Below, one piece after another: positions 7,268 to 41,892 of a stretch of DNA of 64,000 bases. The stretch's first letter is position 1; each line of letters begins with the position of its first letter. Made by a program: the position numbers and the translations under genes. The DNA is from Ancylothrix sp. D3o. Its GTDB lineage: Bacteria > Cyanobacteriota > Cyanobacteriia > Cyanobacteriales > Oscillatoriaceae. Under the pieces are notes generated by a model. It saw only the letters and a list, made by a program, of their open reading frames with translations. It was not told the origin of the DNA and searched no databases. The stretch spans positions 186,001 to 250,000 of the forward strand of contig NZ_JAMXEX010000003.1 of NCBI RefSeq assembly GCF_025370775.1, written 5' to 3'.

Positions 7268-8668
7268 ATGAATACTGAGGAAATGTTACAGTGGGCGGAT
7301 GACATTCTATATACCAAAACAGCAAAACACCTCGATTCTGTGCAAAGGGCCATCCTAGAAGGCGCTTGGCAAGGGTTAAAATATGAAGACATTGCTAAAA
7401 ACTGCCATCGCAGTAAGTCCCATGTTAAAAATATAGCTTCGGAATTATGGCAGACTTTATCAGATTTGTTAGGAGAAGATATCCAGAAGGCAAATGCTCG
7501 CTCTGTTTTAGAACGAAAAGCAATATCTACAATTTATAATTATGGTAAATCCTCACAGATAGTTACTAGCAACATTAATAGCCATATTAATATCTGTCCA
7601 GAAAACCGGCCCTCTTCAGAAGACACAAAACCACCCTCACCCTCACCCCCAAACACGCCCCAAAACAAAAATCAAACCCCAATCATCGACTTAACACAAG
7701 CACCGGCCCTAACCGAATATTACCCCCGCACCACAGAAGAAACAACCCTCAAAAACTGGATATTACAAACCAACGCACGCCTAATTACAATCTACGGCTT
7801 AACTGGAATAGGAAAAAGCAGCCTCACCCTCCAACTCATCGAACAAATACAAAACGAATTTGACTACATTATCTGGCAAAGCCTCAACGAAAAACCCACC
7901 CTTACCACCCTACAAACCAACCTCAAACAAATTTTTTCCCAAACCCAAAAAACCCCCTTCCCCACAATCCTAGATTATTTCCGCACCTATCGCTGTTTAA
8001 TTATTATTGATGACCTACAAAACATCTTTAAACCCCATGAACTAGCCGGCCAATACCTACCCGGATATGAAGATTACAGCCAATTTTTTAAACAAATTGC
8101 CACCACAACCCATCAAAGTTGCTTAATACTCCTCACCTCCGAAAAACCGAGAGACATCACCACCATAGAAGCCGAAAACCCCTCAACCCAAACCTTACAC
8201 CTCAAAGGATTACGAGAAGAACAAGCACAAGAAATCTTGCTAAAAAAACAATTAACAGATGAAGAAAAATGGCCAGAACTAATAACCATTTATCAAAGTC
8301 ATCCCCTTTGGTTAAAAATCATCTCCGCCACAATCAACCAATTATTTAACGGTAGCGTCTCCCAATATTTAGCAGACCCAAATGATATATACTTAGGAGA
8401 CATAGAGCCGGTTTTAGAAACTCAATTACAGCGCTTATCCGACTCAGAAAAAACCGTGATAGGCTGGTTAGCAAACCAAACAAACGCCGTAGACATCTCA
8501 CAAACCCCCGCCGAAACAGCATTATCAAAAACTCAATTTTTGCAAGCCATAGAATCCTTAAACCGGCGCAGCTTAGTAGAAAAAGAGCCGGTCGCAGGAC
8601 GAGCAATGTTTCAAATTAACCCAATCTTTAAACAATACATACAGTTAAACCCAGATAATCTTAAATAA
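7268..8668 (+). CDS. STAND ATPase with N-terminal HTH and NB-ARC domain
   Basis: A 466-residue STAND-class ATPase. Residues 1-85 match the helix-turn-helix domain common at the N-terminus of cyanobacterial NB-ARC proteins (annotated as vWA-MoxR-associated protein N-terminal HTH); YEDIAKNCHRSKSHVKNI is the recognition segment. A proline/threonine-rich linker follows to about residue 150. The ATPase has Walker A GLTGIGKSS near 176, Walker B LIIIDD near 244, a sensor-like LILLTSE, then a winged-helix region. Relatives often carry WD40 or TPR repeats at the C-terminus; here the protein stops after the winged helix, so the usual sensor is absent. Such ATPases act in signalling or defence; no function can be assigned. 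Confidence 0.82.
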   Translation: MNTEEMLQWADDILYTKTAKHLDSVQRAILEGAWQGLKYEDIAKNCHRSKSHVKNIASELWQTLSDLLGEDIQKANARSVLERKAISTIYNYGKSSQIVTSNINSHINICPENRPSSEDTKPPSPSPPNTPQNKNQTPIIDLTQAPALTEYYPRTTEETTLKNWILQTNARLITIYGLTGIGKSSLTLQLIEQIQNEFDYIIWQSLNEKPTLTTLQTNLKQIFSQTQKTPFPTILDYFRTYRCLIIIDDLQNIFKPHELAGQYLPGYEDYSQFFKQIATTTHQSCLILLTSEKPRDITTIEAENPSTQTLHLKGLREEQAQEILLKKQLTDEEKWPELITIYQSHPLWLKIISATINQLFNGSVSQYLADPNDIYLGDIEPVLETQLQRLSDSEKTVIGWLANQTNAVDISQTPAETALSKTQFLQAIESLNRRSLVEKEPVAGRAMFQINPIFKQYIQLNPDNLK

Positions 8669-38524: not shown

Positions 38525-38829
38525 ATGACCACCGGCAGGCGACCAACTCTCAACCGGCCAAGCCGCACTACAAACACCCCATCAGCCGGCCAGCACACCA
38601 GTCATCCTCATCGAATCCTTGGCCCACATCCGCCAAAGACCCTATCACCGCCAAAAACTTGTCCTTGTTTGGTCAGCCCTGCGAGATTTTGCAATAGAAC
38701 TGCAAAGCTTAGGCTACCCCGTAACCTACATCAAAGCCTCCCAAAAATTTCAAATAACCTCGACCGTATGATTACTGAACAATTGCAAGTAATAGGCAAG
38801 CAAGCGGAGAACTGGCATCAACAAACCTA
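38525..38829 (+). pseudogene. Remnant of a cryptochrome/photolyase-related protein gene
   Basis: From the ATG at 38525, MTTG is followed by a frame change. In the new frame comes GDQLSTGQAALQT and then TPVILIESLAHIRQRPYHRQ, KLVLVWSALRDFAIELQSLG and YPVTYIKA. This is the N-terminus of the cryptochrome/photolyase-related family (PF04244, FeS-BCP type). The protein should be about 500 residues; the rest is gone. The frame ends at a TGA after QITSTV. The last 70 bp read MITEQLQVIGKQAENWHQQT in the original frame, a segment I do not recognise. Confidence 0.78.
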
Positions 38830-38879
38830 ATGGGGGATGTTGGCACCATCTCTGTTGCAATTCTTATTTTTTGGCTAAA

Positions 38880-38953
38880 TTTTCCCCAACTATTCCACAA
38901 ACATTCCACAGGAGACTCACAGGTTTTCCACAATTTAGACAGAGTTTTCCACA
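38880..38953 (+). other. oriC: Cluster of DnaA-box-like sequences (candidate replication origin)
   Basis: Four sites with the cyanobacterial DnaA-box pattern lie in one orientation: TATTCCACA at 38891, CATTCCACA at 38902, TTTTCCACA at 38924 and TTTTCCACA at 38945. A one-mismatch site TTTTCCCCA lies at 38880. The starts are 11, 11, 22 and 21 bp apart, one or two helical turns, as expected for DnaA on one DNA face. An A/T-rich stretch (about 38858-38880) lies just before them. No dnaA or dnaN is in the window. Confidence 0.55.
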
Positions 38954-39378
38954 GGCAACAAGGCTACGCCGCAAGCGCGAGTGTTGGGTTGGGGATATCT
39001 GGCAGAGGGAATTTTGGGGGGGCCGGTGGAGAGAGTTTAATGAAGTTTTGTAACAAAAATAGTGTTATAACCCTTATTGTTTCGTGAGAGGTAGACCGTG
39101 TTTGCCTGGGTCTGTAACATTTCGCAGCATTGACAACCCACCCCCCTGATAGCGGACAATGTTGCAGCCACGCTAAAACATTTGCCTCCGCAACGAGAGT
39201 GATGGCAAAAGCAAACGGCACCTAAAAAACTGCTCTTTTGCCTTATATTTGCAAGGAAATATCACGGGTGACACTTCCTGAAACTAGCTTTGGGTGAGGA
39301 AGCTAGGCAAATTTCAAGCACCTAAAATCCAACTTCGCCGAAAACTTGAAGATACATTTTGCCCCCAAAGGAGGAATT
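38954..39378. other. Intergenic region between DnaA boxes and DUF2811 gene
   Basis: About 425 bp with no gene, right of the DnaA-box cluster. It has a hairpin CTAGCTT-N9-AAGCTAG at 39284-39306 that would lie in the leader of the DUF2811 gene. No clear promoter seen. If the box cluster is an origin, this is its flank. Confidence 0.4.
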
Positions 39379-41169: not shown

Positions 41170-41892
41170 TTATTCGAGTGTTTTACCTAGAGATGCGGTG
41201 GCTGTTTCAAATTTGTAGCCAACTCCTCGTACTGTTTGGATGAGGGATGGTTGGCTGGTGTCTATTTCTATTTTGCGGCGAATTTGGCCGATATGGACGT
41301 CTACGACGCGCATATCTCCGACGTCGCTGCGGTCATAGTCCCAGACTTGTTCGAGGAGTTCGGCGCGTCGCCATACTTTGTTGGGGTTGCTGGCTAAAAA
41401 ATATAGCAGGTCAAATTCCAAGGCAGTTAGGGCCACAGTCTCATTGTTGAGGGTGACTTCCCGGCGCACGGGGTCGATGAATAGTTGCCCAAAGGTTAGG
41501 GTTTGTTTTTCGGCGGGGATGATCGTGCGTTGGCGTTTTAAGATGGCGGCGACTTTGGCGGCTAAAACGTCTAGGTGGAAGGGTTTGGTTATGTAGTCAT
41601 CTGCACCAAGCCCATAGGCTCTCAGCATATCAGCTTGGTCTGTCCGGCTGGTTAAAAAGAGGACAAAAACGCCGGTGCGCTTTTGCATTTCTTGGCAAAG
41701 CTGAAAGCCGGTTGTGTCTGGCAGGTTTACGTCCAAAACCACTAGATCCGGATTGAAGTCCGCGAACACATCCAGCGCTGTTTTACCGCAGTCAGCAGAT
41801 TGCATTTCATAACTCTGCTGTTTGAGGTAACGCAAAATTAAATTACGGATTGCAGGATCGTCATCAACGACAAGTATCTTGGCAGGGGCCAT
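41170..41892 (-). CDS. OmpR-family response regulator
   Basis: A 240-residue two-component transcription factor. The receiver starts KILVVDDDPAIRNLILRYL, with phosphoacceptor Asp near residue 54 in LVVLDVNLPDTTG, Thr/Ser in VLFLTSRTDQ and Lys in YITKPFHLD. The winged-helix output domain ends LIQTVRGVGYKFE. The start ATG at 41892 is followed by MAPAKI. No histidine kinase gene is adjacent. It resembles other cyanobacterial OmpR-type regulators, but I cannot tell which; RpaA, RpaB and ManR are not matched closely. Function unassigned. Confidence 0.92.
   Translation of the reverse strand: MAPAKILVVDDDPAIRNLILRYLKQQSYEMQSADCGKTALDVFADFNPDLVVLDVNLPDTTGFQLCQEMQKRTGVFVLFLTSRTDQADMLRAYGLGADDYITKPFHLDVLAAKVAAILKRQRTIIPAEKQTLTFGQLFIDPVRREVTLNNETVALTALEFDLLYFLASNPNKVWRRAELLEQVWDYDRSDVGDMRVVDVHIGQIRRKIEIDTSQPSLIQTVRGVGYKFETATASLGKTLE

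Follow-up and report, generated by a model that had tools for sequence, protein, structure and literature searches.

What does a compact array of DnaA boxes do when it lies away from dnaA and dnaN? The question is raised by five nonamers on the + strand at 38880-38953 of the window, the 64,000-nucleotide stretch analysed here, which corresponds to positions 186001-250000 of contig C3 in a genome of 6.57 Mb and 142 contigs. A first-pass annotation had described five same-strand boxes with start-to-start spacings of 11, 11, 22 and 21 bp, beside an A/T-rich stretch and a decayed gene and away from dnaA and dnaN, and had proposed that they mark a chromosomal origin. The description holds: the geometry is as claimed, the A/T-rich neighbour is the T-rich element listed in Table 1, the decayed gene is real, and dnaN lies on contig C1. 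The origin proposal is probably wrong, and the array as the start of chromosome replication is not supported. We read the array, with moderate confidence, as a putative DnaA-bound cis-regulatory array controlling a small downstream DUF2811 gene within a regulatory unit of about 300 bp. It has the appearance of an ancient control region that has been retained across the cyanobacteria in front of one small gene.

The array and its surroundings

In addition to the five direct boxes we identified a sixth box, inverted and degenerate (TGGGGATAT), which was absent from the first-pass annotation. Across the whole window, sites within one mismatch of TTTTCCACA show no enrichment (40 against 33.5 expected, a count reached by 13 of 100 shuffles). 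The signal lies in the clustering of the boxes. TTCCACA occurs seven times on the + strand and five times on the - strand of the window, and the Poisson probability of finding three further copies within 75 bp of a given one is about 9e-8. The spacer between boxes 4 and 5, ATTTAGACAGAG, is identical in genomes G002, G003 and G004, and a 30-base pattern of box 4, spacer and box 5, with up to three mismatches, was found in 2 of 292 genomes of the phylum, one of them the window's own; the exact spacer is narrowly distributed, the box array broadly. Rfam and tRNA scans of the window gave no match.

Table 1. Features of the putative regulatory unit and its gene (window coordinates)
Feature	Position	Strand	Remarks
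T-rich conserved element GCAATTCTTATTTTT	38857..38871	+	Left edge of unit
DnaA box 1, TTTTCCCCA	38880..38888	+	Presumed low affinity; CCCCA form recurs here in many relatives
DnaA box 2, TATTCCACA	38891..38899	+	Alignment column kept as ATTCCcCA
DnaA box 3, CATTCCACA	38902..38910	+	Alignment column kept as xTTTCCaCA
DnaA box 4, TTTTCCACA	38924..38932	+	Cyanobacterial consensus
DnaA box 5, TTTTCCACA	38945..38953	+	Cyanobacterial consensus; anchors the wide alignment
Inverted degenerate DnaA box (TGGGGATAT as read on +)	38990..38998	-	
Conserved element TTTTGTAACAAAAA	39046..39059	+	Between array and putative promoter; 32-sequence alignment block
Conserved GTAACATTTCGCAGCATTGACAA block	39114..39136	+	32-sequence alignment; weak likeness to RpaB HLR1 direct repeat
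-35-like TTGACA	39130..39135	+	Putative DUF2811 promoter
-10-like conserved GGACAATG	39154..39161	+	
DUF2811 (PF10929) gene, 74 aa	39379..39603	+	AGGAGG precedes; Pfam E 5.3e-29

A strict pair pattern, TTCCACAN{8,20}TTTTCCACA, matches four times in the 6.57 Mb genome, twice at the DUF2811 array and twice at another array beside guaA, while the reversed-pattern control has no match. The same pattern is present in all eight genomes of the family (37 matches; reversed pattern, none). Thirty of these matches could be placed at three sites: before dnaN, upstream of DUF2811, or beside guaA and a cation-efflux gene. At the first of these dnaA lies on the other side, except in G004, in which only dnaN was found, and the DUF2811 site was found in seven of the eight genomes, the exception (G007) being 66% complete. 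Of the other seven matches, one overlaps a placed site, two belong to G003, at about 0.7 kb from its dnaA, and four resemble guaA-side sequences. The guaA-side array has three boxes at 20- to 22-bp steps; in G000 (C2:74972-75021; L005 ~7973-8022) the steps are 21 and 20 bp and the array lies between convergent guaA and cation-efflux genes.

Just 5' of the DUF2811 array is the decayed gene, a fragment of PF04244 (DPRP, photolyase-related; 38601-38768, E 1.7e-12) covering positions 25-73 of the 224 in the profile.

Linkage to DUF2811 and to dnaA

The linkage of the array to DUF2811 extends far beyond the family. We surveyed 94 of the 120 DUF2811-bearing genomes of the order with a rule that chains boxes of at most one mismatch at steps of 10-12 or 20-23 bp within 1 kb upstream of DUF2811. 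On the DUF2811 strand, 87 of the 94 genomes (27 families of the order) have at least two phased boxes and 60 have chains of at least three, while a phased pair occurred on the opposite strand in 0 of 94 genomes and in 0 of 1880 mononucleotide shuffles, which preserve base composition only. This rule gives low counts: it credits the array of the window with only two boxes, because CATTCCACA carries two mismatches. DUF2811 is present in 190 of 194 genomes of the class, and from these 190 we picked 40 loci in 38 genomes outside the order to span families; 34 of them (26 families) pass. The six that fail have single boxes, four of them with an opposite-strand box 44-46 bp downstream. In a third set, the named loci, which are the best 80 of 238 confirmed stretches, 75 pass. 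In neither of these two sets did the opposite strand ever reach two boxes. Some of the 190 genomes fall inside the order and the three sets overlap partly. Among the five named loci that fail, two have upstream sequence shorter than 300 bp, two reach a score of one, and the fifth, from Baaleninema simplex PCC 7105, has four boxes about 1.6 kb upstream of DUF2811, as does G385, which was counted as a miss. Four genomes with dnaA (G385, G375, G087 and G021) lack a two-box chain within 1 kb, and we count these against regulation of DUF2811 by the array.

The spacing of the conserved elements is also nearly fixed. When 108 representatives of 159 distinct loci are aligned on the last box, the conserved columns read TTTg.AATtcTTaTTtTT, TTTTCCCCA, ATTCCcCA and a TTTCCcCA/TTTCCaCA box, followed on the 3' side by TTTTCCACA, TTTTCCACAGG and an inverted TGGGGAT; an alignment of 32 sequences adds TGTAACaaAaA and a TTGTAACATTTCGCA.CATTGACAA...CACAATG block. 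Among 175 distinct loci, 124 have AATTCTTA, and in 109 of these it precedes the last box by 85-87 bp (86 bp in the window); 143 have TG[GT]GGA[TA] 20-110 bp downstream, and 122 of these place it 44-45 bp past the start of the last box (45 in the window). At the equivalent position, several other orders have a near-perfect inverted box. The distance from the last box to TTGACA is 182-184 bp in 116 of 163 loci, again out of 175 (median 183, interquartile range 182-184, range 55-280; 185 in the window), while that from TTGACA to the ATG varies from 60 to 445 bp (249 in the window). Of 210 loci, 189 have a TTGACA in the 450 bp immediately preceding DUF2811, compared with 247 of 2100 mononucleotide shuffles; TTGACA-N17-22-[AC]AAT is present in 165 of the 210 loci and in 15 of the 2100 shuffles. 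The array thus keeps its register to the promoter-like element rather than to the coding sequence, which suggests that it is part of the promoter unit. The boxes stand in the fixed relation that a DnaA-regulated promoter would have, with TTGACA as the putative promoter in use. At 183 bp the separation is large by the standard of classical DnaA-controlled promoters, and this counts against the regulation of DUF2811.

The occurrence of DUF2811 follows that of dnaA. Among 148 genomes of the order, 120 have a PF10929 match and 124 a PF00308 match; three weak partial PF00308 matches (G305, G312 and G347; E 1.5e-12 to 6.2e-9) were scored as no dnaA, and genomes without a listed match as absent, so that the four in neither listing count as having neither gene. 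Both genes are present in 116 genomes, neither in 23, DUF2811 only in four and dnaA only in five (G007, G311 and G334, which are 66, 61 and 77% complete, with G354 and G372). The two are thus concordant in 139 of 148 genomes (Fisher p 2.8e-18, ignoring phylogeny). Since the dnaA search covered the order and not the class set, the joint loss applies to the order only. Multiple losses of dnaA in cyanobacteria have been described (PMC7198777). In our data the losses recur across separate families and sometimes within one genus: in genus g38, G262 has neither dnaA nor DUF2811 and G164 has dnaA, DUF2811 and four boxes; in g125, G318 has both genes and G304 and G331 neither; in g15, G061 lacks dnaA and the boxes, which G341 and G353 both have.

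The boxes themselves follow dnaA in the same way. Strict phased pairs occur in 114 of 121 genomes with dnaA (the exceptions are G077, G202, G311, G320, G334, G357 and G375) against 4 of 27 without. There is a strong trend for the site to be maintained only where DnaA exists, with G306, G116, G158 and G058, which have strict pairs somewhere in the genome, as exceptions that count against the regulatory reading. In G306 (95% complete) dnaA was undetected and DUF2811 has a two-box chain; its dnaA may be missing from the assembly, because the congener G322 has dnaA and a near-identical DUF2811 upstream region. In G116 two of the three matches are a tandem repeat. G061 and G365 (99% complete) have DUF2811 without dnaA and zero boxes within 1 kb upstream, yet retain the GCAATTCTTA and CATTGACA elements; G310 (75% complete), which also has DUF2811 without dnaA, has one box. 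The loss of the boxes alone from a retained regulatory region in G061 and G365 offers the most direct evidence in this analysis that DnaA maintains the boxes, and together with the contrast in strict pairs it supports the view that the array is under selection. These two genomes also show that DUF2811, with its promoter-like element, is retainable without DnaA, a point against the regulatory reading.

In two loci of family f24 (L216 and L217) the boxes upstream of DUF2811 read TTATCCACA, which is the E. coli consensus, and a perfect inverted box follows at about 45 bp; this suggests drift of the DnaA-box sequence.

Alternative readings of the array

The first alternative is that the array is a DnaA control site comparable to E. 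coli DARS, datA or a titration cluster, acting on oriC in trans, with DUF2811 merely a stable neighbour. Consensus boxes and phased, weaker-looking boxes away from oriC would fit such a site, as would the second conserved array on the guaA side, which lies between convergent genes in the window's genome. Of 19 further loci of the order, selected for carrying the guaA-type triplet, 17 include guaA, the efflux gene or both in the examined stretch and two include neither. With no promoter role evident, the guaA-side array may be a stand-alone DnaA site, and its position between convergent genes implies that DnaA-box arrays need not be regulatory, a point against regulation of DUF2811. Like DARS1, DARS2 and datA (PMC5742627), the array is a compact group of DnaA boxes at a conserved place away from oriC. 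The inverted box gives it the mixed orientation of a DARS core, in which box I of three is inverted relative to II and III (PMC5742627). The likeness concerns orientation, the inverted degenerate box lying at 45 bp. In E. coli, DARS promotes release of ADP from DnaA, and datA combines an IHF site with strong and weak boxes and acts in DnaA-ATP hydrolysis (PMC5742627). The array differs from these sites, as described there, in having five direct boxes at 11/11/22/21 plus one inverted, and in its near-fixed distance from one promoter-like element throughout the class. Neither this distance nor class-wide linkage to one gene is expected of a trans-acting site, and the distance from array to dnaA is variable (about 1.37 Mb in G006). 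It is mainly because of the register between array and promoter that we prefer cis-regulation over a free-standing DnaA sink, and we consider action in trans unlikely.

It is improbable that the array is a replication origin or an auxiliary DnaA-dependent initiation site. A T-rich element, weaker boxes and consensus boxes running in one direction recall the logic of a DNA unwinding element (DUE) with a DnaA-oligomerization region (PMC5742627). The array also shares intergenic TTTTCCACA boxes and an AT-rich stretch with the oriC beside dnaN of Cyanothece ATCC 51142 (PMC4674748), but is adjacent to neither dnaN nor dnaA, has a promoter-like register to DUF2811, and coexists with a dnaA-dnaN cluster elsewhere. 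In 55 of 68 cyanobacterial species oriC is flanked by dnaN (PMC4674748). In the window's genome this usual place is on contig C1, where dnaA occupies about 699.5-701.0 kb and dnaN starts at about 701.3 kb, with three strict boxes in the interval of about 307 bp between them. The corresponding interval in G001, G002 and G007 has box clusters in both orientations and a conserved double box at its end. G061 has neither dnaA nor the boxes but still carries the T-rich element, which is therefore not kept for DnaA alone and is not simply a DnaA unwinding element. Cumulative GC skew along C3 (4-468 kb, 2 kb missing) and C1 (500-900 kb) is irregular, with no minimum at either the array or the dnaA-dnaN interval, and so favours neither place. 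The register with a promoter-like element argues against an origin.

Binding of the nonamers by some other protein, the boxes resembling DnaA boxes in looks only, is highly improbable. DnaA binding here is predicted, and one of three TTTTCCACA boxes in Cyanothece was left unprotected by DnaA domain IV; the same domain nevertheless binds this nonamer, with two of the three boxes footprinted (PMC4674748), and the boxes disappear along with dnaA. A chance cluster, for which the lack of enrichment of one-mismatch TTTTCCACA sites across the window might be cited, is negligible as an explanation, having been refuted by the class-wide conservation in register.

A possible mechanism and the DUF2811 gene

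If the array does control DUF2811, DnaA would anchor on boxes 4 and 5 and then spread over the 11-bp-phased, presumably weaker boxes 3, 2 and 1, with the inverted weak box 45 bp downstream. This nucleoprotein complex would alter, in whichever direction, the output of the TTGACA promoter about 183 bp away, and DUF2811 expression would track the amount or nucleotide state of DnaA. DnaA is a transcription regulator in E. coli and B. subtilis, where its sites also lie upstream of genes, and E. coli DnaA regulation prefers closely spaced pairs of sites (PMC11317965, PMC4447404). The array differs from the cases described there in lying about 183 bp from a putative -35 element, a distance conserved class-wide, and in that its target is a family of unassigned function found in cyanobacteria.

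DUF2811 may take part in DnaA-oriC replication or be required chiefly alongside it, and it might provide feedback on initiation. We speculate, tentatively and with well under even confidence, that DUF2811 is a DnaA partner: DnaA bound to the array would set DUF2811, DUF2811 would limit or license DnaA-oriC initiation, and the guaA-side array would serve as a further, stand-alone site of DnaA control. If so, the feedback loop would have the age of the class and would usually be abandoned by lineages that drop dnaA, and with the guaA-side array it would form an oriC-plus-satellite system with a logic like that of E. coli oriC, datA and DARS, built independently. DnaA control in polyploid cyanobacteria, and why some lineages dropped dnaA, is a live question (PMC7198777, PMC6478999). 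DnaA has been followed at oriC by ChIP-qPCR (PMC6478999), and the term 'DnaA box' has no occurrence in the main text of either paper. Literature searches on cyanobacterial DnaA sites, mostly outside subscription journals, gave nothing on the DUF2811 array among the titles and abstract openings listed, so an earlier description is possible. A search for DUF2811 or PF10929, again mostly outside subscription journals, found no paper. The locus thus yields a gene family without a paper found and a defined 300-bp element, both amenable in Synechococcus elongatus, our control genome, in which the family is present.

Pfam identifies DUF2811 on the longer ORF (E 8.4e-29) and in 62 of 62 members, other families matching weakly (best E 0.0059, in one member), and the best hit of a PDB sequence search is an unrelated capsid protein (E 0.9). 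An AlphaFold2 model from 62 sequences is weak (mean pLDDT 60.9), with three helices and zero strands. A ribbon-helix-helix fold, considered from the sequence, is unconfirmed, the low-pLDDT model being strandless and no relevant PDB or Pfam relative appearing.

The next gene after DUF2811 encodes protoporphyrinogen oxidase (PPO, TIGR00562; 39616-41067). A PPO promoter reading of the array was rejected, since the array accompanies DUF2811 in G136, where PPO was not found beside DUF2811; a single-protein search of the genome contigs for PPO gave nine stretches that matched the pattern, none of which was confirmed. We also considered an RpaB site of the HLR1 type (defined in PMC9241938) in the GTAACATTTCGCAGCATTGACAA block, where a 10-bp repeat is HLR1-like in relatives but a poor match by eye in the window's genome, and keep it as a lead only. 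An OmpR-type response regulator at 41170-41892 has RpaB as its best NCBIfam match, below the cut-off (216.9 against 330 bits), and a relative of it with 70% identity also adjoins DUF2811 in G136.
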